Shown one piece after another: positions 5,154 through 53,516 of a stretch of DNA of 64,000 nt (positions within the stretch are counted from its first letter, which is position 1; every line of letters begins with the position of its first letter). Below the pieces are notes generated by a model that saw nothing but the letters and a program-made list of their open reading frames with translations, did not search any database and was not told the DNA's origin. The position numbers and the translations under genes are program-made. Origin of the DNA: Salinispira pacifica. GTDB lineage: Bacteria > Spirochaetota > Spirochaetia > DSM-27196 > Salinispiraceae. The DNA is taken from contig NC_023035.1 of the NCBI RefSeq assembly GCF_000507245.1, positions 633,001-697,000 of the forward strand, given 5' to 3'.

Positions 5154-7226
5154 GTGGTAAAAATGGAGCTGGAAAACCTACAGTGCGCTCATTGCGCCTC
5201 AGTAATCGGGGAAAAGCTTGAGCAGAAGGACTATCTACGGTCCGTACACATCAGTTTTGCAACGAAACAGCTAAAAGTAGAAAGCGATTTGGAATCAGAG
5301 GCGCTCTGGGCTCGGATTCAGGAAACCGTGGACGAAGTCGAGAGCGGAATATCCGTCGTTCTTACCGAACAGAAAAAAACCGCCTCCGAGAAGCAAATTA
5401 AGATTTCCGACATAGTAAAGAAGCATCTTCTACTGATAGCTGGTGTTATTCCTTTTGTCGTCGCATTAATCCTCAATCCGCCTCAACTTTGGTTGCGCAT
5501 ATTGTTGTATGGCGGCGCGTATGGTCTCATCGGCGGGGATGTGGTGACACGGGCAGTAAAAAATATTATGAAGGGGAACCTGTTTGATGAAAACTTCCTC
5601 ATGACGATTGCGACCATCGGCGCGTTTGGTCTGGGCGAGCTCACTGAAGCCGCGGCGGTTATGCTTTTTTACAAGGTTGGTGAGGCTTTCCAGGATTTCG
5701 CTGTGGATAAGAGCAGGCGAAGCATCAAATCACTACTTGATATCAAAGCCGATACCGCAAATCTTTACCTGGACGGACAGCTCAGGTCCGTCGATCCCGC
5801 TGATCTGGAAATCGGGCAGGTGATACTCGTCAAGCCTGGAGAAAAAGTCCCGGTGGATGGCCAGGTGATTGAAGGGATATCATCGGTGGATAGCTCCGCA
5901 CTGACTGGTGAAAGCATGCCCCGCTCCATGGAGCCAGGGGTTGAGATTCTAAGCGGCTTTATCAATATCAACAGTCCATTAAAAGTGCAGGTCACTGCAC
6001 GTTTCAGCGATTCAACAGTCTCCCGTATTCTCGATATGGTCGAGTCGGCCAGTTCAAAAAAGGCGAAGACCGAGCAGTTTATCACACGCTTTGCGAAGGT
6101 ATATACCCCTGTGGTGGTTATCGGGGCAGCGGCGTTAGCTGTTATCCCTCCGCTGTTGGGTTTGGGGGCGTTTACCGAATGGTTGTCCCGGGCTTTAATC
6201 TTCCTGGTCATCAGCTGCCCCTGTGCGCTGGTTCTCAGTGTTCCCCTTGGGTATTTTGGCGGGCTCGGTGCGGCCAGTCGCAACGGAATCTTAATCAAGG
6301 GAGGGAACTACCTGGAAGCCCTCAATCATATTGATACCTTCGTATTCGATAAAACCGGTACTCTGACAAAGGGAAGCTTCACCATAGAAAAGGTTTCCGG
6401 AAATAACACTCTCGAGCTGGCGGCCCTGCTGGAACAGCACTCCAACCACCCAATCGCCCTCTCAATCGTGGCGCATTATGGAAGCGAAAATCTCAGCGGA
6501 GAGCTCGATCAGGTAGAGGAAATTCCTGGTAAGGGTTTACGGGGCAACTATTCCGGAAAAGAGTTGTTGGTTGGTAATGCGCGCATCATGGCCGACCATA
6601 AGGTTGACATCGACTCAGAGGATTATCCGGGCACAAAAGTTCATGTGGCATTGGACGGGCAATATGAGGGTGCGGTTTTTATCAAAGATGAAATAAAAGA
6701 CGATTCCCGTGATTTGATTTCGGCCATCAATTCAGAAGCATCGTCACAAACTGTCATGCTCACCGGCGATCAGAGATCGATTGCCGATCATGTCGGCAAT
6801 GAACTCGCTGTGGGTGAAACCTACAGCGAACTCCTGCCTCAGGACAAACTGGCCCATGTCGAGAGGCTGGCCGAAACAGGACGCAAGGTTCTGTTTGCCG
6901 GTGACGGAATAAACGATGCGCCGGTGCTGGCAAGGGCCGATATCGGAGTCGCCATGGGCGCTTTGGGATCGGATGCCGCCATCGAAGCTGCGGACATGGT
7001 TATTATGTCCGATCAACCTTCGAAAATACTCGTGGCTCGCAAGATCGCCAGGAAAACCCGAGCACTGGTTTTACAGAATATCGCGTTCGCTCTGGCAATC
7101 AAGGTTTTCTTCCTGGCCTCCGGCGCATTAGGCGAGGCCAGCATGTATGAAGCCATATTCGCCGATGTGGGAGTCGCGCTTCTGGCGGTATTAAACTCAA
7201 TGCGGATATTGCGGCCGATCAAATGA
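5154..7226 (+). CDS. P1B-type heavy-metal translocating ATPase (Zn2+/Cd2+/Pb2+ type)
   Basis: The 690-residue ATPase starts at a GTG 2 bases after the repressor, with AAGGA upstream. In order it has an N-terminal HMA domain with C11-x2-C14, membrane helices, the TGES actuator motif, the intramembrane CPC metal site at 355-357, the phosphorylated D399 in DKTGT, an HP motif (SNHPIAL), the hinge GDGINDAP, and a last helix with an aspartate (FADVGVALL). CPC plus that aspartate marks the P1B-2 (ZntA/CadA) class exporting divalent zinc, cadmium or lead. Its partner repressor supports this. It would sit in the cytoplasmic membrane. Confidence 0.92.
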   Translation: MVKMELENLQCAHCASVIGEKLEQKDYLRSVHISFATKQLKVESDLESEALWARIQETVDEVESGISVVLTEQKKTASEKQIKISDIVKKHLLLIAGVIPFVVALILNPPQLWLRILLYGGAYGLIGGDVVTRAVKNIMKGNLFDENFLMTIATIGAFGLGELTEAAAVMLFYKVGEAFQDFAVDKSRRSIKSLLDIKADTANLYLDGQLRSVDPADLEIGQVILVKPGEKVPVDGQVIEGISSVDSSALTGESMPRSMEPGVEILSGFININSPLKVQVTARFSDSTVSRILDMVESASSKKAKTEQFITRFAKVYTPVVVIGAAALAVIPPLLGLGAFTEWLSRALIFLVISCPCALVLSVPLGYFGGLGAASRNGILIKGGNYLEALNHIDTFVFDKTGTLTKGSFTIEKVSGNNTLELAALLEQHSNHPIALSIVAHYGSENLSGELDQVEEIPGKGLRGNYSGKELLVGNARIMADHKVDIDSEDYPGTKVHVALDGQYEGAVFIKDEIKDDSRDLISAINSEASSQTVMLTGDQRSIADHVGNELAVGETYSELLPQDKLAHVERLAETGRKVLFAGDGINDAPVLARADIGVAMGALGSDAAIEAADMVIMSDQPSKILVARKIARKTRALVLQNIAFALAIKVFFLASGALGEASMYEAIFADVGVALLAVLNSMRILRPIK

Positions 7227-13485: not shown

Positions 13486-14442
13486 ATGGAAGTCATCGAT
13501 ACCAAACGAACGGCGAGCGTAATAGCCGTCTTGCTGATAGTGTCAACTGCGCTTTTCGCCTCCGCCGGCTCCGAATCGACCGTCGGCGGACTCGACACCA
13601 TTCCCCAGAGGATCATTGCCCTCGATCCTTTTACCTTCGAGGCAATGGTCGCTCTGGAAGCGCCGATTATCGCGACATCAAGGATTTACATCGAGGAATT
13701 TCTTCAGAAATTTCCCGAATACGAGGAGCAGCTTCAATCGGTAGTTCGTCTGGAGCTCCCCGCCGATCCCGAAATACTGCTGTCTCTCGAGCCCGACGCG
13801 ATTCTCGGGCGTCGCACCGCCATCGAAGGATCCCTCAGGCGCTTGTCGAGAATTGCCCCTACAGTGGTTTTTGCTAATGAATCGAGCGCAGACTGGCAGG
13901 AAAGCGCGGCGTTTTTCGCCGCTGCCATCGGGATGACGACGGAGTTCGATCTCCTGGATTCCCGCTTTCGGGACCGTCTAGCGCTTCTGCAAATCGATCT
14001 GCGTCGGCGCTACGGCGATGACTTGCCAACGGTCTCGCTCCTTCGGATTATGCCCGGCCGATTGCGCCTTTATTTCACCAAATCCTTCGCCGGAATCGTT
14101 ATAGACGGAGCCGGCTTGAGCCATCCGGATCATCAGCAGGAACTGATCGATCGTTCAGGCCGCGGCGCATCGCTGTATAACCTGTCCCTGGAGGAACTCC
14201 GTTTGGCGGACGCAGATTACGTATTCGCCTATACCACCGAAGGTCTGGGCGATGACGAGGCGCAGAGGTATCTGAATGAAGTCCGGGAACAGAGCCTCTG
14301 GGCGAGCCTTGATGCCGTTAAAAACAACCGGGTGTTTATCGTGGAGAATAATTGGTTTGCCGCCGGATATATCGCTGCCGATGCGATAATCGACGATCTG
14401 TATCAACACATACTCGACACAGGCGCATCGGCTCTGCCATGA
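13486..14442 (+). CDS. Iron-siderophore/haem-type ABC substrate-binding protein
   Basis: The 318-residue secreted protein has a signal segment (residues 9-26, ending FASAGSE) followed by type III binding-protein features: PQRIIALDPFTFEAMVAL, a LLSLEPDAILG segment, LSRIAPTVVF and a closing region with VKNNRVFIVENNWF. It is transcribed divergently from the permease/double-ATPase/binding-protein operon, which already has its own binding protein, and shares the intergenic iron box. It may deliver a second ligand to the same permeases. No clear ribosome-binding site precedes the ATG at 13486, so the exact start is less certain. Confidence 0.8.
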   Translation: MEVIDTKRTASVIAVLLIVSTALFASAGSESTVGGLDTIPQRIIALDPFTFEAMVALEAPIIATSRIYIEEFLQKFPEYEEQLQSVVRLELPADPEILLSLEPDAILGRRTAIEGSLRRLSRIAPTVVFANESSADWQESAAFFAAAIGMTTEFDLLDSRFRDRLALLQIDLRRRYGDDLPTVSLLRIMPGRLRLYFTKSFAGIVIDGAGLSHPDHQQELIDRSGRGASLYNLSLEELRLADADYVFAYTTEGLGDDEAQRYLNEVREQSLWASLDAVKNNRVFIVENNWFAAGYIAADAIIDDLYQHILDTGASALP

Positions 14443-14582: not shown

Positions 14583-14969
14583 ATGACCGAATACAGCGAA
14601 TCACTGGAAATGTATCTGGAAACCATACTCGATTTGTCAGTGGATGGAGACGAGGTTTACTCTGTCGATGTGGCAAAAAAGCTCAAAGTATCAAAGCCAA
14701 GCGTGAATCGCGCGCTTGGCATACTTAAGAATGATGGTATGATCAATCACGAACACTATGGAAGCATCAGCCTCACAAAGCAAGGTCTGGCGCTTGCCGA
14801 AGATGTGAGGCTTCGCCATGATTCTATCAAGGCATTCCTGATCTGTTCCCTTAACCTGGATCCCGCTCTGGCGGAAAAAGACGCATGCCGCATGGAGCAT
14901 ATTCTTTCCCCAGGAACCCTCGAGGCTATTAAAGATTTCGTCAAATCCCATACCAAAGAACCGACGTAA
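14583..14969 (+). CDS. DtxR/MntR-family metal-dependent transcriptional regulator (iron type, short form)
   Basis: The 128-residue protein has an N-terminal winged helix-turn-helix (recognition region SKPSVNRALGILK, residues 37-49) and the helical dimerisation/metal domain. It lacks the C-terminal SH3-like domain of DtxR and IdeR, as MntR does. The ligands fall on the DtxR numbering: M10, C102, E105 and H106 of the primary site and H79 of the ancillary site. The other ancillary positions differ (K83, E98). A cysteine at 102 rather than glutamate is the DtxR/IdeR pattern and points to Fe2+. Seven TTAG-N6-CTAA boxes around it are the obvious targets, making it the probable local iron regulator. 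Confidence 0.88.
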   Translation: MTEYSESLEMYLETILDLSVDGDEVYSVDVAKKLKVSKPSVNRALGILKNDGMINHEHYGSISLTKQGLALAEDVRLRHDSIKAFLICSLNLDPALAEKDACRMEHILSPGTLEAIKDFVKSHTKEPT

Positions 14970-18877: not shown

Positions 18878-19117
18878 ATGCGGGCACTGACGATTACATC
18901 GGGATATGATGCGGAATATGTCGACGGAATCCTTGCACTCATCAGAGCGCTTGATTTGGCCATTCTGGTTATTACCACCATCGTGGGCGCAGTGCTCAGT
19001 TCATTTATCGTCCGCAGCATGGTAGATAAGCATTTTGTGAGTCGATTGGGCCTCATTCATTGTCAATATCCGGGGCTGCATCTTCGGAGTTGCGGATCTC
19101 CCTCTGAATCCCGTTAA
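18878..19117 (+). pseudogene. C-terminal remnant of an MptD-type ECF transporter S component
   Basis: A 79-codon frame whose first 60 residues hold one hydrophobic helix (LDLAILVITTIVGAVLSSFI) followed by RSMVDKHFVSRLGL. This resembles the last helix and the KKHFEKAGI-like end of MptD/trep_Strep-family S components, which are normally about 200 residues. The N-terminal helices are absent and an in-frame stop lies at 18842. The final 19 codons overlap the convergent DUF438 gene and are probably not meaningful. A true T component and a truncated A component lie 7-9 kb away on the other strand, which suggests a rearranged ECF system. Confidence 0.45.
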
Positions 19118-20882
19118 TAAAATCTTCGAGGTTCAACCCACCCCGTTCTGCTATCATCCCAAGGGTTGCCATCGACGACATCGTTTTGAACAGGATTGGA
19201 TTTTTAAGCTTTTTGAATTTCGGCGTGAGGCTGATCAAATAATCTTTGACCAATGGATGCGCAGCAAGCAGTTCAGAGAGTCTGGTATCGGCAGACAGTT
19301 CTCCGGGGTTCCCCGCAGTACGTGCTCCGGCAGGCTCATCGACGGTATCTGCGATTGTACCCGCCCCAGCTGATTCATTATCCCAATTCAATAGCCTCTG
19401 AGTACCGCTCAGGCTGCGGATCCGCGTTACATCCTGCATCATTTCCAGAGTTCCCCGGTACGCACCGTTTTCATCCCTGACAGCGGTGTACAGGATGTAT
19501 AAAAACTTTCCCCCCAGCTCCAGCCAGAATTCCGCTGTTGAATGGGTACCCGCTTTAAATGCTTTGAGGATCCGTTCCACGGTATCCACGCTTTCACGTG
19601 GATGGCAATTTTGCACCGCGCGCCCGATCACACCCGGGCTCCGGGGAAAGACCCGCTCTGTTGTATCGCTGTAAAAACGGACGATATCGTTTTCATCAAC
19701 AAAGGAAAAATCGACGGGCATATGCCGATACATCAGATTAATCTGCTCCAGGGTGAGTTTTCCCCTGCTGACATCCAGCTCTCCCCGCTTATCATCAGCG
19801 ATTCCCACTCCGTGCCGCTGAAGTATCGCCGCGAGATCTGCAGCCAGACTCATGCTTTCGGCGGAGGTGCTGACTGATGAATAAGGCAGGGATTCTGACT
19901 GGGCGGTAATCTGCGGCCCCGGAGGAGGGGTGCTGATCAGTGCATATCCGATTTCTTCGTCGCTGCTCCTCATCATTAAAAACTCCTTTTCAGAGATGAG
20001 TTTCAGTGATGTCGGATACAATACTTCCCGTTCCTTATCGATGATGTCACGGACGAGTTCAATCACCTGATCCTGGTGCTCGAGAAATTCCGCCTGTTTT
20101 TCGCTGTCCAGTAGTATCCGCCCTTTTTTAATGCTGTCCCGCACGCCGTTGTCGAATGTCCACATGATCCGCGATGGCCGGTCGAAGCCCTTCTGTTCCA
20201 ATAGCGGGAAGAGCTGATTTTGCTTGCGGGCGAAATGGGTGTTTATTGTTTCAAGTTTTTCGTACACGATGAGCCAGGGGTTGATAATGAATTTACCCGA
20301 GCGTAACGCTTCCATGCTCTCTAACAGGCTTTCGAACTCCTGGCATTCATCGAGATAGGCTTTGATCGGATGCCAGTCAGGTAGTCGCTCTTCGTGGTGT
20401 CTGAGAAACGGTTTAAAAAGCCGGATGATATCATCCATTTTTTCGGTAATGACATCGTCATCCACCCCCTCGGATTTGAGCTTCTGCTCGGCATAAGCGA
20501 ATTCATCGACGGAAATTTCCGTAAACTCTCTGTGAAGTTCGTCTCTGGCGCTTTCCATGGAGATATACCCCGATACAAATTGCCGTTTGATGTTCATGAT
20601 CGTCTCGATCCGGTCCATATCCAGCTCGAGGTGAGAATCCATGCTCCTACTTTCAGCTGGACGGTAGAACCAGGTATGAAATTCATCCGCGGATATTTCG
20701 ATGCAGTGATGATCGAAACCCAAATTCTCCATGAACGGGTACAAGGGGGTCGGCTCGAATTCCTTGATCAGCAGCAGTCCTTCGTGTTCGTCCAGACCAA
20801 GCACGGTATTCCGCAACCGGTTATGGAATCCCACATCCTCATCCCGGCCGTCCATTTTCGTGTATTGGATATCGTTTCTCAT
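19053..20882 (-). CDS. DUF2249-DUF438-hemerythrin-PAS-DUF1858 sensor-like protein
   Basis: This 609-residue soluble protein is recognised by its domain order. A DUF2249-like start (about 20-75) is followed by a DUF438 region (about 85-170), a helical region with spaced histidines and glutamates fitting a hemerythrin-type di-iron bundle (about 165-320; HPIKAYLDECQEFE, THFARKQNQLFPLLEQKG), a PAS domain (about 375-490, DFSFVDENDIVRFYSD) and a C-terminal DUF1858-like segment (about 525-585). There is no kinase or output domain, so it may act through protein contacts. An iron box lies 43 bases upstream of its ATG, which places this oxygen/nitric-oxide- or iron-sensing type of protein inside the iron regulon. 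The function is not known. Confidence 0.78.
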   Translation of the reverse strand: MRNDIQYTKMDGRDEDVGFHNRLRNTVLGLDEHEGLLLIKEFEPTPLYPFMENLGFDHHCIEISADEFHTWFYRPAESRSMDSHLELDMDRIETIMNIKRQFVSGYISMESARDELHREFTEISVDEFAYAEQKLKSEGVDDDVITEKMDDIIRLFKPFLRHHEERLPDWHPIKAYLDECQEFESLLESMEALRSGKFIINPWLIVYEKLETINTHFARKQNQLFPLLEQKGFDRPSRIMWTFDNGVRDSIKKGRILLDSEKQAEFLEHQDQVIELVRDIIDKEREVLYPTSLKLISEKEFLMMRSSDEEIGYALISTPPPGPQITAQSESLPYSSVSTSAESMSLAADLAAILQRHGVGIADDKRGELDVSRGKLTLEQINLMYRHMPVDFSFVDENDIVRFYSDTTERVFPRSPGVIGRAVQNCHPRESVDTVERILKAFKAGTHSTAEFWLELGGKFLYILYTAVRDENGAYRGTLEMMQDVTRIRSLSGTQRLLNWDNESAGAGTIADTVDEPAGARTAGNPGELSADTRLSELLAAHPLVKDYLISLTPKFKKLKNPILFKTMSSMATLGMIAERGGLNLEDFINGIQREIRNSEDAAPDIDNE

Positions 20883-20921
20883 TGGTGTCTCCTCATCAGC
20901 ATCTATTACTAGAATACTACC

Positions 20922-20955
20922 AAAGTTAGGCTATGCTAACGGTAACATATGTTAC
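20922..20955 (-). promoter_or_regulatory. DtxR-type iron box plus adjacent 14-bp perfect palindrome
   Basis: The box GTTAG (20925-20929), six bases, CTAAC (20936-20940) precedes the DUF438 gene on the minus strand. One base further lies the perfect palindrome GTAACATATGTTAC (20942-20955), possibly a second regulator's operator. No clear -35/-10 pair was identified. Confidence 0.6.
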
Positions 20956-21025: not shown

Positions 21026-22057
21026 CTATTTCATCTGGAGAATCTGGTTGTACAGGTTCTCCAATTCGTCAACGATGCGAGGCGTGGGACGAAGAATTAG
21101 CGAGGACGGAATAATCGCCAGGTTGCCATGGAGACCGGCAGTGGTCCGCTCTATAACCGGATCGGCATTCATGATGTCCTCTGCACTGGTAATGGACATT
21201 GCGCCGAAAATAAAATCTGGATTCTCCGCAAGAATATACTCGGAGCTGAGAATGGGGGATTCACCAATTACGCCGTCAGCGATGTTTTCCACACCGATGC
21301 GCTTCAGGATTTCCCCTGCCAGGGTATCGGAGTCGAAGGCCATGATGGGTCCCACAGAATAGATAAAAGCACCTTTTAGCTCAAGGGGAGATGCGCTGAG
21401 GCGATTGGAAATCTCATTGAGCGCCTCAACTTTTTCCATCAGCAGATCCACGGATTTATCAACTCGATCGCTAAACAGGCCGAGCACCAAGGTGTTGTTC
21501 AAGATCGCAGAAATGGTATCTGGGCCGTGAATAAGAGCGGGTATTCCCATCTGTGCCAATTGCCCAACCAGATCGGCATTCATGCCATTCAGTAGTACCA
21601 GGTCCGGTTCGAGGGCTACAATCTGTTCGAAATTGGGCCGTGCCAGACTGCCGACGCTTGGGAGCTTTTGGGTATGATCTTCAGGCCAGATACCCGATCT
21701 CGAGGTTCCGATGCCGGCAATTGCTTCTTCACCGTTGATCAGGTAGAGGGCTTCAACCGCTCCGGCGGAGGTTATCACCACCCGATCATAGGCTCGCAGG
21801 TCAACTTTGTTGCCCATATGGTCACTGACGAACCAGGATCCGTCCAGCTCGCTGATTATCCAGGAACCTTCCGCCGAATCTCCCAACCAGTTATCATGAA
21901 TGGTTTCCACCGGCGAAACCGCCGGTATTTCTCCCACGGTCGGCTCAGTCAGCTCCGTTTCGTGGGAGGTTTCTCCAGCTCCTCCGGCAAATAGCGGAAA
22001 TACTATTGTAAAGGCCAGCATTAGCAGGCCGACGACCCGTACATTATTGTTGATCAT
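21026..22057 (-). CDS. Haem/siderophore-type ABC substrate-binding protein (HmuT-like)
   Basis: The 343-residue secreted protein has a leader ending PLFAGGAGE, a spirochaete-style signal. The type III binding-protein pattern follows: AYDRVVITSAGAVEALYLI, PSVGSLARPNFEQIVALEPDLVLL and SSEYILAENPDFIFGA. It is the last gene of the five-gene operon flavodoxin-permease-ATPase-radical SAM-binding protein, 33 bases behind the radical SAM gene. The company of a HutW-like enzyme and a flavodoxin makes haem the most likely ligand; this is contextual inference. Confidence 0.78.
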   Translation of the reverse strand: MINNNVRVVGLLMLAFTIVFPLFAGGAGETSHETELTEPTVGEIPAVSPVETIHDNWLGDSAEGSWIISELDGSWFVSDHMGNKVDLRAYDRVVITSAGAVEALYLINGEEAIAGIGTSRSGIWPEDHTQKLPSVGSLARPNFEQIVALEPDLVLLNGMNADLVGQLAQMGIPALIHGPDTISAILNNTLVLGLFSDRVDKSVDLLMEKVEALNEISNRLSASPLELKGAFIYSVGPIMAFDSDTLAGEILKRIGVENIADGVIGESPILSSEYILAENPDFIFGAMSITSAEDIMNADPVIERTTAGLHGNLAIIPSSLILRPTPRIVDELENLYNQILQMK

Positions 22058-22090: not shown

Positions 22091-23416
22091 TCAATCCTGC
22101 GCTTCAATTACCCGTTCAATAAGATCTACTGCGAGATTGTTGCCCCAGAATACGCCGTCCGGGCTCAATCTGCGGGCCCCATCATCATCTGAGCGAGAAA
22201 GAAGCCCTGCTGATTCATACTCGGATAGAATGTTTTCTATAAACTCAAAGGACAGTCCGGAGAGAATCGATGCGATCTTTTCTGCATGGTAGTTTCCGAA
22301 TTGTAAAAGTCCAATGAGCAGATTGTATCGGTCCGCTTCCTGCTTCGGCGGGGAAATCATGGTTCGTTCAGCATCCATATGGTAGACCCGGTGGCCCATA
22401 ACGCGCCCTCCCGCACCGTTTCCCAGGGGCAGCAGGTCGCAATTTTGATACCTGATATCGATATAGCGGTACGAATCACGTCCCGGTTTGACAATTTTGG
22501 TAAGCTCTAACAGCTCATACCCCTGGGCGAGCATACTTTCGTAGAAGCGGTTGTGCATCTGGCGGTCGTACTCGTCGGTCTTTTCGAAAAGAAGTCGTCC
22601 CGAATCGATGTCGTTACTCAAGGTTGAACCGGGGTGAATCATAAGTGAATAGAAACTGATGCTGTCGATGTCTAATTCGCGGATATACTGAATATCTCGT
22701 TCCAGGTGTTCCTGGCTCTGACCGGGCCAGCTATAAATAAGATCAATTGCAACTGTCCCGTCGAACCGGCCCCGGATCGTTTCGAATTTTCTTCTCGCCC
22801 ACGCGCCGTCGCCGCTTCGCCCAAGCATTTTCCGGCCATTGTCGGTGAAGCTCTGAATTCCAATGCTTAGTCGGTTGACGCCACAGTCACTAAAAATCCT
22901 TAATTTTTCATCTGTTAAATTGTGTAGCGTGGATTCGACTGTCCACTCATGCCCCGGGGCCAGCTCAAGGCTCTTGCGAATCAGCGGATACAGTTGTGAA
23001 GTATCGTGATTTGAGAGCACCGAGGGGGTTCCGCCGCCGAAATAGAGCACATCGAAAGGCCGTGACCGTACATACGGGGTGTGAGAAATCGATGAAAAAA
23101 CCGTGTTCAGATGTCTGGCGTAGGCGTGCAGATTCTCTCCGGTGGATTGCTCGCGACGCATATTGCAGAAGCTACAGATTCGATCGCAGTAAGGGAGATG
23201 AAGATATAGCCCCCGCGGGTGATCTTCAGGAATCATGGCCAGCAGATCGGTAAATTGAAGACTGTTTGCCATTGCGGCTTTCATTTCCGTGCTCGACGAT
23301 TCCCGGGGCAAGGTACGGTTCGGGGGACCCCCGGATTTCCCCTGTTTATTCTCTAGCGCTTTGCTTACTGCGGCCTGGGTATCATGATGGCTTCGGAATC
23401 GACCATTCATTTTCAT
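22091..23416 (-). CDS. HutW/HmuW/ChuW-like radical SAM protein, probable anaerobic haem-degrading enzyme
   Basis: The 441-residue protein belongs to the HemN/HemW-like radical SAM group. The 4Fe-4S cluster cysteines are C77, C81 and C84 in YCDRICSFC, followed by the VLYFGGGTPS glycine motif and IGIQSF. In haem-uptake loci such proteins (ChuW, HutW, HmuW) open the haem ring without oxygen and release iron, using SAM and a flavodoxin or similar electron source. Here the gene overlaps the ATPase gene by 4 bases and a flavodoxin starts the operon, closely matching the Fusobacterium hmuF/U/V/W/T set known from the literature. The distinction from HemW (haem chaperone) or HemN rests on context. Confidence 0.8.
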   Translation of the reverse strand: MKMNGRFRSHHDTQAAVSKALENKQGKSGGPPNRTLPRESSSTEMKAAMANSLQFTDLLAMIPEDHPRGLYLHLPYCDRICSFCNMRREQSTGENLHAYARHLNTVFSSISHTPYVRSRPFDVLYFGGGTPSVLSNHDTSQLYPLIRKSLELAPGHEWTVESTLHNLTDEKLRIFSDCGVNRLSIGIQSFTDNGRKMLGRSGDGAWARRKFETIRGRFDGTVAIDLIYSWPGQSQEHLERDIQYIRELDIDSISFYSLMIHPGSTLSNDIDSGRLLFEKTDEYDRQMHNRFYESMLAQGYELLELTKIVKPGRDSYRYIDIRYQNCDLLPLGNGAGGRVMGHRVYHMDAERTMISPPKQEADRYNLLIGLLQFGNYHAEKIASILSGLSFEFIENILSEYESAGLLSRSDDDGARRLSPDGVFWGNNLAVDLIERVIEAQD

Positions 23417-24270: not shown

Positions 24271-25367
24271 CACATAACCGCCCGATTTTGCTTGATAGCC
24301 AGATAAATAAAGACTGGTGCGCCGAAGAACGCTGTAACTGCGCCGATAGGAATTTCCACCGGCGCTAAGACCGTGCGGGCTGCGGTATCTGCCAGAAGGA
24401 GAAACAATCCTCCGGCCAGCGATGTCACCCCCAGGAGTTTGGTATTGCTGTAACCGACTACGAGGCGCATGGTATGGGGAATTATGAGGCCGACAAAACC
24501 GATCATCCCGCTGAAGGCAACGGAAAAGCTGACCACCAGGCAAGAGACAAGCAGCAATCGTTTTTTGAGTCGGCCGACATCGATTCCCAAAGAGTGGGCT
24601 TCCTCATCTCCGGTCATCAGCGCGTCCAACTCGTGTCGGTGGTAAAAAAAGTAGATTAGGGATGCAAGCAACGGGACGGTAAGCAAGGCGATCTTTAACC
24701 AACTTGCCCCTCCCAGGTAGCCCATGGTCCATACGATAATCCGGTAACTATCCTCCCCGATGGCATACATGGCAAAGCTGGTGAAAGCGCCAAGGAATGC
24801 AGATACTGCAACACCGATTATCAGGAGGCTGGTTATTCTGGTCTGCCCGCCATTCATCGCCAACCGGAATATCAGGAAGGTTGTCGAAACTGATACCACG
24901 AATGCGAATATGCCGTAGAAAATCGTCGGTAGGCCTAGAAGAAAGGCGGTAACGGCACCGGCGACAGCGGACGCGCTGATACCGATGATGTATGGATCTG
25001 CAAGAGGATTATGAAAAACCGCCTGGACAACGGTACCCGAGGATGAGAGCATCATACCGATGAGAATAGCCATGGCGATCCGCGGTAACCGAACGCTCCA
25101 AATAATTGTTGAGTAATATGCAGGCAGGTCAGAGGAACGACGCACCATGGTTTTCACTACATCGTTCATGGAAATCGAAACCGATCCGATGCCGGTGCTG
25201 ACCAACGCAATGAAGGCAATGGCGAGCGCGAGCATGAGAATCCCGCTTTTGCTGTCAACCCGAATTGCTTCAGAAAATTGCCGTCGCGGCCAGGAGAATA
25301 CCCGGATATTCCGGCGACCGCGTGCTTCAGAAACGGCTCTAATCTCCTCACTCATGCTGCCTGCCAT
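24270..25367 (-). CDS. FecCD-family haem/siderophore permease (HmuU-like)
   Basis: The 365-residue membrane protein has a cytoplasmic N-terminus of about 40 residues, then about ten helices with the FecCD motifs VRLPRIAMAILIGMMLSSSG, HNPLADPYIIGISASA and GMIGFVGLIIPHTMR. The start is either ATG 25367 or ATG 25355; both overlap the end of the flavodoxin gene (stop at 25348). As the only permease in this operon it would form a homodimeric channel, unlike the two-permease importer at 11.3-13.4 kb. Confidence 0.85.
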   Translation of the reverse strand: MAGSMSEEIRAVSEARGRRNIRVFSWPRRQFSEAIRVDSKSGILMLALAIAFIALVSTGIGSVSISMNDVVKTMVRRSSDLPAYYSTIIWSVRLPRIAMAILIGMMLSSSGTVVQAVFHNPLADPYIIGISASAVAGAVTAFLLGLPTIFYGIFAFVVSVSTTFLIFRLAMNGGQTRITSLLIIGVAVSAFLGAFTSFAMYAIGEDSYRIIVWTMGYLGGASWLKIALLTVPLLASLIYFFYHRHELDALMTGDEEAHSLGIDVGRLKKRLLLVSCLVVSFSVAFSGMIGFVGLIIPHTMRLVVGYSNTKLLGVTSLAGGLFLLLADTAARTVLAPVEIPIGAVTAFFGAPVFIYLAIKQNRAVM

Positions 25368-25881
25368 TGTTAAGGATTGGCGCGAGAATTTCTCTTACCG
25401 AAGTCAGGGCGTTTGCGCAATCATCTTCATTGGGATGACGTGCGGCTTCCTGGTGTCTCGCCATCCGCTCCTCGGTCATGGCATGGGGATGATCTGCAGG
25501 AAAATTTTTGAACATCTCAGTAAGCCGGGGATCGATTTTCCCCATACACAAAAATTCTCCGAGAAACTTGTTGTTGCGCTCAACCAGCTCACGGATCCTG
25601 GTGCGTACATCATCTGCATGGTTCGAATCGGGATAGGCCCCAAGGGTTCCGAAGACACCGATCTTTTTCCCGCGAATCGATTCAAGGACCTCAACGGCTT
25701 CGGCGTTTGCTGATCCTTTATCAACCCAGAAGCCCCATAGGATCCATGCATATCCTTCAGTATCAAATTCGTCGCTTGCGGATGCAATATCTGCATGGGG
25801 TGTCAACCCTCTATGGATTGCCTCGGCCACTGTTTTGGTGTTGCCGGTTTTGGATGAATAGATGATGAGCCCTTTGTGCAT
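25348..25881 (-). CDS. Flavodoxin-family protein (HmuF-like electron donor)
   Basis: The 177-residue protein starts with the flavodoxin FMN phosphate-binding loop SSKTGNTKTVAEAI (residues 9-22) and continues with WILWGFWVDKGSAN and GKKIGVFGTLGAYP, the flavin-ring contact regions. It is the first gene of the haem operon, with an AGGAGG ribosome-binding site and an iron box upstream. The likely job is to pass electrons to the radical SAM haem-degrading enzyme encoded three genes downstream, as HmuF does for HmuW. It may also be an iron-sparing replacement for ferredoxin. Confidence 0.82.
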   Translation of the reverse strand: MHKGLIIYSSKTGNTKTVAEAIHRGLTPHADIASASDEFDTEGYAWILWGFWVDKGSANAEAVEVLESIRGKKIGVFGTLGAYPDSNHADDVRTRIRELVERNNKFLGEFLCMGKIDPRLTEMFKNFPADHPHAMTEERMARHQEAARHPNEDDCANALTSVREILAPILNNGRQHE

Positions 25882-51368: not shown

Positions 51369-52134
51369 GTATGCCCAGCGAAGCGCAGGCATACCCGACC
51401 GGTTGGAAGATACCGGTGTCGCCTCGTTCAGGAGGAAGACAATCCGAATTGCAAGGGCGCAGCTGGCAACGGTTGGGTCTGAAGGAAGCAATAGGAAGTG
51501 AACAGCACATAGCGAAAGCGAACCTGATACGGCACAACAGGGGTGGTAAGCGTGCAAAATAGCGCGAAGCCCGAAACCTGAACAGACCTGTAGTGTGTTT
51601 GAGGATGGCGTTGTTTACAGGGACTGCGCACAGTATCTGGGGAAACCTGTTGAAATCCCAGCAAAGGGTAGGGAACGACAAGCAGAAATGCAAGTCAGAT
51701 CGAAGTTTCAGCAGGTGGCAGATGAGTCCGTAGTAGTGAGTAAGTTCCGGCCAGTGAAAGCCAGTAATGGTGTGGAGGAGAAAACCGGAATGACCTCGTC
51801 CCCGGTGACGAGGACTGCATTCAGGCCAAAAGCCGGATGCGGATGCGAAGGGACGAAGTTTTTAGTAAATCTTGTTTCGATGAAAAGGCTGGTCGGCAGC
51901 TACGCTGCCTGCTCGCCTATGCAACCGAAGGAGCGTGAAGCCTAAACAGAAAGTTGCTGGAAAGTGAGCAGAGTATGTGGCCACGGCCGACTGGGGAACC
52001 AGGAAGCTGAGCCAGAATACCGTTGACCTGAGTATCTTTTTGACCAGCTGAATATTGCCGGAAAATGGCTAAGAGACAGCTGCAGAGGAGAGAATGAGCA
52101 GGAGTTTCACCGCCGAGGTTTCAAACGAAAGAAG

Positions 52135-53424
52135 ATGCAGACACAAGGAAATCGTAAAATCTGGTACAGCCTCTACGGCAGGATGCTCGAGAGACCACGG
52201 CTGGAGGCCGCTTTCAGGAAGGTGAAGGCAGCGAACGGAGCCCCCGGAGTAGACGGAGTGAGCGTCAAAGCCTTTGCCGACCGTCTGGCGGAGCAACTCG
52301 ATGTACTTGTGAAGGAATTGAAGGACAAGAGCTACCGACCGCTTCCAGTCTTGAGGGTGGAAATACCCAAAGACGGGGGAGGAGTAAGGAAACTCGGGAT
52401 ACCTTCGGTTCGCGACCGGGTAGTCCAGCAAGCCTTACTGGACATTCTAAACCCAATATTTGACCCGGACTTTCATCCGTCCAGTTACGGATACCGACCG
52501 GGCAGAAGCGCACATCAGGCAATTGATAAGGCATCTACGTTCATGCGCAGGTATGAATTGGAATGGGTAGTGGATATGGACTTGTCGAAGTGTTTTGACA
52601 CACTGAAGCATGACTTTTTACTGACTCAAGTACGAAAACGAGTTGCCGATGGAAGCATCTTGAATCTCATACGCCTCTTTCTTGAAAGTGGTGTGATGAC
52701 GGATGCTGGTGAAGAGAACACTGAAGAAGGGAGTCCCCAGGGCGGGGTGATTAGTCCGCTTCTCGCGAACATCTACCTCGACTTCTTTGACCAGTGGAGC
52801 ATGGCACGAGGGTATCGCATAGTTCGCTATGCCGACGATATCCTCATCTTTGCTTCATCACAAAAAGGTGCGGAACGTCGGCTTGCAGCTGCAACGCATT
52901 TTCTGGAAGAAGAAATGGGACTGGCTGTGAATCGTGAGAAAACTCACATTACAAACCTGTATGAGGGGGTGCGCTACCTTGGAGTAGTAATCTCTCGTCA
53001 CCACACCCGGATTCAGGAAAAGAAGGTGAAAGCCTTCAAGGACAAGGTCAGGAAACTGACCCGACGCAACAGCGGGAGACCGCTGGGATCGACAATTTAC
53101 GAACTCAATCCAGTACTACGCGGGTTTGCTAACTATTTCAGGATAGCAAATTGTACGAAGGTATTCAGGGAGCTGATGAGCTGGGTACGCAGGCGATTGC
53201 GGGCTATTCAGTTGCGACTTTGGAAACGCTCTTCCCGGCTGCACCGCCGATTGCGGCAGCTGGGATTTCAAGGCGAGTTCAAACACATCAAGATGAGTTC
53301 GTGGAGATCGGCTAAAAGTCCGCTTGCAGCCATGGCGCTGCAAAACAAGCACTTTGAAGAGATGAATCTGTTTTCTCTCGACAAGGTACAGGTCGCAATT
53401 TCTGTCCGGCAGCTTGCTGGATAA
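52135..53424 (+). CDS. ltrA: Group II intron-encoded reverse transcriptase/maturase, without endonuclease domain
   Basis: The 429-residue protein has the group II reverse-transcriptase order: an N-terminal RT0-like region, NGAPGVDGVSV, RKLGIPSVRDRVVQQAL, SSYGYRPGRSAHQAI, the catalytic YADD at 232-235, then the maturase domain (LNPVLRGFANYF, WVRRRLRAIQLRLWKR). It stops after about 100 further residues with no HNH endonuclease, so reverse splicing would need an existing primer or the replication fork, as in group IIC elements. It lies in domain IV of the intron. Retron and DGR types are excluded by the intron RNA around it and the maturase domain. Confidence 0.92.
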   Translation: MQTQGNRKIWYSLYGRMLERPRLEAAFRKVKAANGAPGVDGVSVKAFADRLAEQLDVLVKELKDKSYRPLPVLRVEIPKDGGGVRKLGIPSVRDRVVQQALLDILNPIFDPDFHPSSYGYRPGRSAHQAIDKASTFMRRYELEWVVDMDLSKCFDTLKHDFLLTQVRKRVADGSILNLIRLFLESGVMTDAGEENTEEGSPQGGVISPLLANIYLDFFDQWSMARGYRIVRYADDILIFASSQKGAERRLAAATHFLEEEMGLAVNREKTHITNLYEGVRYLGVVISRHHTRIQEKKVKAFKDKVRKLTRRNSGRPLGSTIYELNPVLRGFANYFRIANCTKVFRELMSWVRRRLRAIQLRLWKRSSRLHRRLRQLGFQGEFKHIKMSSWRSAKSPLAAMALQNKHFEEMNLFSLDKVQVAISVRQLAG

Positions 53425-53434
53425 CTGAAGACAG

Positions 53435-53516
53435 GAGCCGTATACGAGGTCCGTACGTACGGTTCTGTGAGAGGGACAATAAAGGAGGTCATTCCTCCTT
53501 TATTGCCCTACTCGAT
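53435..53516 (+). ncRNA. Group II intron domains V and VI
   Basis: Domain V: GAGCCGTA (53435-53442) pairs with TACGGTTC (53458-53465), with the CG bulge before the 3' arm and the catalytic AGC at 53436-53438. Domain VI: CAATAAAGGAGG pairs with CCTCCTTTATTG, GGG with CCC, and the unpaired A at 53510 lies 7 bases from the 3' splice site. Confidence 0.85.

Follow-up and report, generated by a model that had tools for sequence, protein, structure and literature searches.

In a 64,000-nucleotide stretch of the Salinispira pacifica genome (contig NC_023035.1, positions 633,001 to 697,000; hereafter the window, whose coordinates are used unless the genome or another locus is named) we examined a gene at 19053-20882 (minus strand) that encodes a 609-residue DUF2249-DUF438-hemerythrin-like-PAS_10-DUF1858 protein of the PG_0686 subfamily. 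Two adjoining operators in its promoter, an iron box and an HcpR2 box, indicate probable repression of the gene by iron and probable activation by nitric oxide (NO) via HcpR2. The reading that we favour, and consider rather probable as a whole, is a cytoplasmic iron-handling protein of nitrosative stress whose promoter integrates NO and iron signals. It is graded in this way because we hold its regulatory half, the pairing of iron and HcpR2 operators, with considerable confidence, and its biochemical half, iron handling in the manner of RIC, tentatively. The domain architecture, both operators and their rarity in the genome, the ligand swap in the hemerythrin-like bundle and the enrichment of HcpR-type and Fur-like sites among relatives are all read from sequence. 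An earlier note on this DNA had suggested a di-iron sensor of oxygen or NO tied to iron status.

Two adjoining operators in front of the gene

The iron box GTTAGGCTATGCTAAC lies exactly where the earlier note had placed it, at 20925-20940, and is called DtxR-type here on what we take to be the general form of DtxR operators. Its full form, GTTAG-N6-CTAAC, occurs at nine places in the 3.78-Mb genome (reversed control, three), and eight of the nine fall within 34 kilobases (kb), genome 624839-658940, in a stretch rich in iron-uptake genes. The binomial chance of eight of nine sites falling in one given stretch of that size is 4e-16, for a stretch picked after the sites were seen. For the looser TTAG-N6-CTAA, one mismatch allowed, the count in the window does not exceed chance (11 against 11.45 expected), but on the genome-wide clustering of the full motif we reject a chance iron box. 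By Pfam, the genes directly downstream of the boxes are feoA, a Peripla_BP_2 protein at 13486, a flavodoxin at 25348-25881 and the gene studied here; the open reading frame (ORF) adjoining the box at 1063 matched no Pfam family, and genes were assessed at seven of the nine sites, those other than window 8453 and genome 420841. The same operator is thus shared by iron-uptake genes, as in a DtxR-type iron regulon, and its likely reader, judged by family, is a DtxR-family metal-dependent repressor encoded at 14583-14969 (plus strand; Pfam Fe_dep_repress and Fe_dep_repr_C).

One base beyond the iron box, at 20942-20955, lies the HcpR2 box GTAACATATGTTAC, which the earlier note had overlooked and which supports its mention of NO. 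The published HcpR2 consensus, GTAACnnnnGTTAC, was derived from hcp promoters and is described as tied to a proline at recognition position 181 of the helix-turn-helix (PMC1274295); the promoter of the window gene carries it. The 14-mer GTAACATATGTTAC occurs only once more in the genome, at 557563, in front of hcp (genome 555884-557476, the single hcp gene identified). When at most two mismatches are allowed, the 16-mer GGTAACATATGTTACC is present at three places (none for the reversed control, about one expected by chance): the hcp promoter, the intergenic region between hcpR and a ferredoxin gene beside hcp, and the window gene. Two other places matching GTAACNNNNGTTAC look like background, one of them lying inside a repetitive coding stretch. 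An HcpR2-type regulator is encoded beside hcp as well: the Crp/Fnr protein at 5598-6302 of locus L154 reads SRPSLSRV in its HTH_Crp_2 domain, with position 181 assigned by eye, and NCBIfam offered no HcpR name for it.

Both operators lie within the 143 base pairs (bp) that separate the gene from a Peripla_BP_2 substrate-binding protein gene upstream on the same strand (21026-22057, minus; Pfam). On the gene's strand, the iron box stands between the HcpR2 box and a putative -10 hexamer, TAGTAT (20914-20919, minus), identified by hexamer comparison at what we take to be class II activator spacing, with the box centre at -41.5. At this spacing hcp has TAGATT and the ferredoxin gene TAGAAT. Out of 328 offsets around the boxes, the class II offset is the only one that gives TAGNNT in all three promoters and, besides offsets inside the box, the sole one with at least four TATAAT letters in all three. 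HcpR2, which is NO-responsive in other bacteria, would bind GTAACATATGTTAC at -41.5 and bring in RNA polymerase, just as it would at hcp and the ferredoxin gene. When iron is plentiful, the adjoining GTTAGGCTATGCTAAC would be occupied by an iron-loaded DtxR-type repressor. Sitting after the HcpR2 box and ahead of the -10 hexamer, this repressor would be in the path of the polymerase and block the promoter. With NO activation and iron repression combined, the protein would be made in cells that face NO while lacking iron. The literature examined, in the parts available, gave no account of such a composite promoter, which is not proof of absence; as far as we know, the composite promoter and the fixed ligand swap described below are the new parts.

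Two observations concern other iron boxes of the stretch. A pair of feoA copies differing in one of 87 letters (locus L061, 8840-9134 and 12349-12643; genome contig G000:C1 at about 624.8 and 628.3 kb) stand behind the same iron box with the same downstream letters, and feoB follows one of them, which suggests a recent duplication. Another iron box precedes a 142-residue ORF and then a flavodoxin-like ORF, recognised by eye (L061, 11217-12228; about 627.2 kb on the same contig), so that flavodoxin genes lie behind two boxes of the genome.

A remodelled, probable metal site in the PG_0686 subfamily

The domain order given in the earlier note is borne out by Pfam, relatives and structure models. 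The ORF has an ATG start and no internal stops, and the 3.78-Mb genome holds no second copy, with one insignificant match (E 0.55) beyond the self-match. PAS_10 (residues 381-486, 19425-19742; 93.9 bits against a cut-off of 22.1) and a DUF1858 domain without cysteines (residues 531-589, 19116-19292; 50.0 against 32.2) exceed their Pfam thresholds. DUF2249 (25.9 against 29.5), Hemerythrin PF01814 (24.5 against 25.3, over it only when counted with its neighbours) and DUF438 (16.5 against 25) fall below theirs, and we retain these assignments because relatives, a model and the alignment with PF0695 support them. The DUF438-like helical region (about residues 81-160, 20403-20642) and the hemerythrin-like helical bundle (about residues 170-305, 19968-20375) have aligned counterparts in relatives whose scores clearly exceed the cut-offs (98.2 and 65.3 bits in L004); PF01814 itself is above cut-off in L003 (29.1 bits) and L031 (29.5 bits), with no match in L069. 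The DUF2249-like N-terminal domain (residues 1-73, 20664-20882) is modelled as beta-alpha-beta-alpha-beta-beta from an alignment that includes DUF2249-bearing relatives, with blocks at a predicted local distance difference test score (pLDDT) of 64-85. Two AlphaFold2 models (mean pLDDT 76.4 and 79.7; predicted template-modelling scores 0.62 and 0.55) both show residues 172-295 as a helical bundle, together with a PAS fold and a C-terminal domain made of helices. Pfam and the models gave no output domain, as the earlier note had said. No match was found to the RIC profile (TIGR03652, NCBIfam, E <=1) or to ScdA_N (Pfam, E <=10), and the Pfam domains of the protein include none with a known nucleotide-cyclase site.

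The window protein matches 85 of 394 genomes of the same class at E <=1e-40. Scanning a genome collection with this protein alone gave no match, and scanning it with an eight-member alignment gave 177 relatives. The best 80 of the 177 were kept and 79 yielded a usable ORF (L129 gave no row), which together with the window protein make the 80 rows counted below. These relatives are not independent species: many are Veillonella and Clostridium, and L091 represents the L003 gene. Also represented are Marinifilum, Prolixibacteraceae, Prevotella, Porphyromonas, Leptotrichia, Treponema and others. DUF2249 is common to 27 of the 80 rows (26 relatives and the window protein), and the domain order that includes it is not unusual in this alignment. 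In a 40-row tree, nine spirochaete rows (the window protein, L003 and L031-L037) are split from the rest by a branch with 100/100 support.

At the metal-ligand positions of RIC and hemerythrins (for RIC partly after PMC5701242), the window protein keeps H171, H216 and E284 and replaces the Glu by Q221 and two His residues by D244 and I280. Among 31 canonical rows, H171 and E179 are present in all 30 rows that have a letter there, H216 in 29, E221 in 31, H244 in 27 and E284 in 31. Across the 80 rows of the subfamily, H171, E179, H216 and E284 are invariant, and column 244, the helix-C His position, is always acidic (Asp in 66, Glu in 14). Column 221, the helix-B Glu, is Gln in 78 of 80, a count that is partly selected since the scan patterns included RKQNQ, whereas columns 171, 179, 244 and 284 were not selected. 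The window protein thus departs from the canonical type of Ddes_1165 and PF0695 (Glu221, His244) and has the acidic 244 and Gln 221 of the PG_0686 subfamily, as well as PAS_10 followed by DUF1858, a C-terminal domain found in 78 of 80 rows. By these features it is a member of that already known subfamily. Outright loss of the ligands was considered and rejected: the helix-C His column is 244, where the clade keeps Asp or Glu, so the site (H171/E179/H216/Q221/D244/E284) is better called remodelled than degenerate. The alteration thus follows one fixed pattern across the rows, more than mere decay of the site. The C426, H427 and P428 residues of PAS_10 are likewise invariant in 80 of 80.

The nearest studied protein is PG_0686 of Porphyromonas gingivalis W83, apparently a member of the same subfamily. 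It is described as having 517 residues, with no DUF2249 reported, and as lacking the classic five-His motif (PMC10101095). It shares the Hemerythrin-PAS10-DUF1858 order, and its predicted metal residues H141, K145, M165, D169 and E209, mapped from the printed residues only, correspond to window positions 216, 220, 240, 244 and 284 at a constant offset of 75. Iron was reported in the recombinant protein by Ferene S stain, an ethylenediaminetetraacetic acid (EDTA) assay and spectra, with oxy/met-like spectral changes (PMC10101095). It differs from the window protein in being induced by oxidative stress, namely prolonged hydrogen peroxide (H2O2) exposure, and in being claimed as a diguanylate cyclase (PMC10101095). 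Its gene is up 2.3-fold (p 1.7e-5) in iron-depleted P. gingivalis (PMC10434189), which together with the iron box upholds the proposed tie to iron status. Since iron is reported in PG_0686 despite the ligand changes, metal binding of another kind is likely. The di-iron part of the earlier proposal is doubtful: H171, H216 and E284 and the reported iron speak for it, and the replacements at 221, 244 and 280 against it. That such proteins are widespread holds for the subfamily, which spans several anaerobe lineages; that they are unexplained is only half right, as PG_0686 and the canonical relative Ddes_1165 have already been studied.

Ddes_1165 of Desulfovibrio also combines hemerythrin and PAS parts, and its printed H234, E239 and H262 correspond to columns 216, 221 and 244 at a constant offset of 18; unlike the window protein, it keeps the canonical Glu and His at 221 and 244. 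It is reported as NO-induced (listed value 1.98, adjusted p 0.0209) with a proposed YtfE role, and the D. vulgaris homologue DVU2590 is said to respond to nitrite and not to oxidative stress (PMC5701242). The closest solved protein is PF0695 of Pyrococcus furiosus (3cax), which matches residues 209-503 at E 9.6e-48 over hemerythrin-like and PAS_10 parts and differs in having Glu and His at columns 221 and 244. As a structural match to the window model it reaches Z 21.4 over residues 167-500, but at a root-mean-square deviation of 19.6, and the list of structural matches is filled by PAS domains and says little on the helical part. SMU_1151c (2qkp) matches through a PAS_10-type C-terminal domain (E 1.3e-24). 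Depositors call both structures uncharacterised, and a literature search for the two listed unrelated matches, probably because the search term begins Pfam accessions. RIC (YtfE/ScdA/DnrN) resembles the window protein in its hemerythrin-like bundle and its link to nitrosative stress, and differs in having ScdA_N and no PAS; its ligands are only half kept in the window protein. In Thermus, DrpB combines DUF1858 with DUF2249 and takes part in nitrate respiration, and the DrpA/DrpB descriptions available name only these two domains, with no hemerythrin, DUF438 or PAS (PMC6282519). PMC8756737 was rejected as DUF438 literature, since the paper names DUF4388.

Regulatory sites and neighbours among relatives

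In order to compare regulation across the subfamily, 79 upstream regions of relatives were set against 543 of other genes from the same loci, with labels permuted within loci over 5000 rounds. Site thresholds were set after the first counts, and the HcpR2 motif was added after the window and PMC1274295 had shown it. HcpR2-type sites (at least 9/10) precede 8 of 79 relatives against 7 of 543 controls (2.0 expected), TGTGA-N6-TCACA 14 against 8 (3.1 expected) and Fur-like 19-mers (at least 14/19) 14 against 12 (3.8 expected); none of the 5000 rounds reached the observed count for any of the three. Either enriched HcpR-type site is found in 22 of 79 relatives against 15 control regions, and in combination with a Fur-like site in 5 of 79 against one control region. 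TTGAC-N4-GTCAA is present in none of the 79 relatives and in 6 of 543 controls, five scrambled palindromes showed no enrichment upstream of the 79, and neither did PerR, DtxR-type, FNR or NsrR sites. One spirochaete member, L033, has a 9/10 match to the iron box. HcpR regulons are reported to contain hemerythrin-like genes often (PMC1274295). In a C. difficile hcpR mutant, frdX-hcp is described as the only one among the changed genes with a putative HcpR site (PMC12915319).

RIC-like matches occur in 9 of the 79 loci, seven of them in stricter gene clusters, as counted by a phmmer search that may include other hemerythrins. Further neighbours are FecCD permeases (6 loci), Rrf2 (5), Crp/Fnr (4) and Hcp (3). 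A RIC-like ORF lies at most 105 bp from the relative's gene in four loci (L080, L094, L102 and L123), on the other strand in L080 and as a 71-residue ORF overlapping the relative's gene in L094. Across lineages there is no conserved operon partner.

Some associations are local. The closest relative of the window gene begins 7 bp after hydF (cluster in locus L053, 6417-14229, of G036), an adjacency that makes a link to protection or repair of [FeFe] hydrogenase possible. A DUF454 gene, its start no more than about 5 bp from where the relative's gene ends, is present in five loci (L083, L084, L092, L095 and L118), which suggests an operon partner there. A stand-alone DUF1858 protein of about 70 residues is encoded 1-41 bp downstream of the relative's gene in L105, L115 and L116, with a Cys-x-x-Cys in L115 and a hemerythrin gene further on.

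Possible roles of the protein and other features of the stretch

There are possible explanations for what the protein does. Its bundle retains two histidines and three carboxylates (H171, E179, H216, D244 and E284), and the altered site, with Q221 and D244 in place of the canonical Glu and His, most likely holds iron. Like RIC (YtfE), it would take up NO-damaged iron or return iron to damaged iron-sulfur or hydrogenase centres, with PAS_10, DUF1858 and DUF2249 as candidate partner or ligand modules. We infer the identity of the proteins that bind the promoter, the iron in the window protein, its cytoplasmic location and its repair role from the features described above. Going further, and with a little more reserve than for iron handling itself, the protein could be a largely unrecognised member of the HcpR response and a second hemerythrin-like repair line beside RIC. 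It would then have a 2-His/3-carboxylate/Gln centre, rebuilt from a His/Glu one, that holds or hands over iron during NO attack in iron-starved cells, made from a promoter that computes 'NO and not iron'.

A number of observations weigh against this NO-and-iron role. At the promoter, the hcpR direction of the third site has no comparable -10 hexamer, a sigma-70 consensus scan found no promoter at the window gene, and the -10 hexamers were recognised only once the sites had been located. At the chosen thresholds, HcpR-type boxes are missing in front of 57 of 79 relatives, and the seven spirochaete subfamily members tested (L003 and L031-L036) show neither an HcpR-type nor a Fur box, which means that dual control is not shared by all and varies by lineage. 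HcpR-type boxes also precede 4 of 15 canonical spirochaete DUF438 genes, a count that has no matched control, and the NO link may therefore not be specific to the subfamily and may be older. RIC and Hcp neighbours are confined to a minority of loci, some of which are near relatives, and L003 belongs instead to a hydrogenase-maturation cluster (radical-SAM genes, a lyase gene and hydF), where it starts 7 bp after hydF. In the literature, PG_0686 is described as an H2O2-induced protein and a diguanylate cyclase, with no repair role reported (PMC10101095), and for T. denticola and P. gingivalis the predicted HcpR2 regulon contained hcp alone (PMC1274295).

One alternative is the classical di-iron hemerythrin-type sensor, in which reversible binding of oxygen or NO at a two-iron centre would alter the PAS domain and be passed to a partner. 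The hemerythrin-like and PAS parts are there, and the iron and the oxy/met-like changes reported for PG_0686 (PMC10101095) would fit. We nevertheless consider it improbable, since Glu221 and His244 are Gln and Asp in the clade, position 280 (His in RIC) is Ile, and the protein has no output domain that we could find. Neighbours and operators point to NO and iron and not to oxygen, and FNR and PerR sites are not enriched in the relatives; the oxygen part of the earlier proposal found no support. Repair or detoxification fits the neighbours at least as well as the putative sensor role. The departure of the usual Glu and His ligands could instead mean a metal-free scaffold, where the bundle has lost its function and PAS_10, the strongest Pfam match, does the sensing through its invariant Cys-His-Pro. 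Drift, however, would not keep H171, E179, H216 and E284 in all 80 rows and an acidic residue at 244, and iron is reported in PG_0686 (PMC10101095); we rate this unlikely, if marginally less so than the di-iron sensor.

A diguanylate cyclase of a new class, making cyclic di-GMP from GTP without a GGDEF motif under the tuning of iron or NO, has reported biochemistry in its favour. Recombinant PG_0686 is reported to make pyrophosphate and cyclic di-GMP and its mutant to contain about 54% less cyclic di-GMP, and the residues named in that paper (PMC10101095) map to the window protein at the offset of 75 (H141/H216, D169/D244 and E209/E284). In the alignment, however, GG(D/E)EF occurs in none of the 80 rows and the RxxD 'I-site' in six, with RDEN in the window protein; what that paper cites as a 'leucine heptad' is the conserved segment leading into PAS_10, and no Pfam domain with a known nucleotide-cyclase site was found in the window protein. 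We regard cyclase activity as very unlikely to be the function here. Both the printed cyclase and the di-iron oxygen sensor of the earlier note thus appear less likely than the NO-and-iron role, which the two operators make directly testable. If true, it would extend by one member the HcpR2 regulons, for which hcp alone had been predicted in several groups (PMC1274295). The subfamily spreads over Clostridia, Veillonella and its kin, Bacteroidales, Leptotrichia and spirochaetes, many of them host-associated anaerobes able to meet NO and iron limitation together.

The region has other features as well. The iron-uptake cluster includes a radical-SAM protein (22091-23416, minus; Pfam Radical_SAM only), possibly a HutW/ChuW-type enzyme of anaerobic heme degradation. 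Upstream of the iron stretch lies cas1 (Pfam; L061, 1-604; G000:C1 at about 616 kb), beside ORFs that by eye resemble further CRISPR genes. Rfam matched no RNA family in the window beyond two group II intron parts (D1D4-3 at 51460-51627 and 53433-53516, plus strand), which suggest a mobile group II intron about 2 kb long at 51460-53516.

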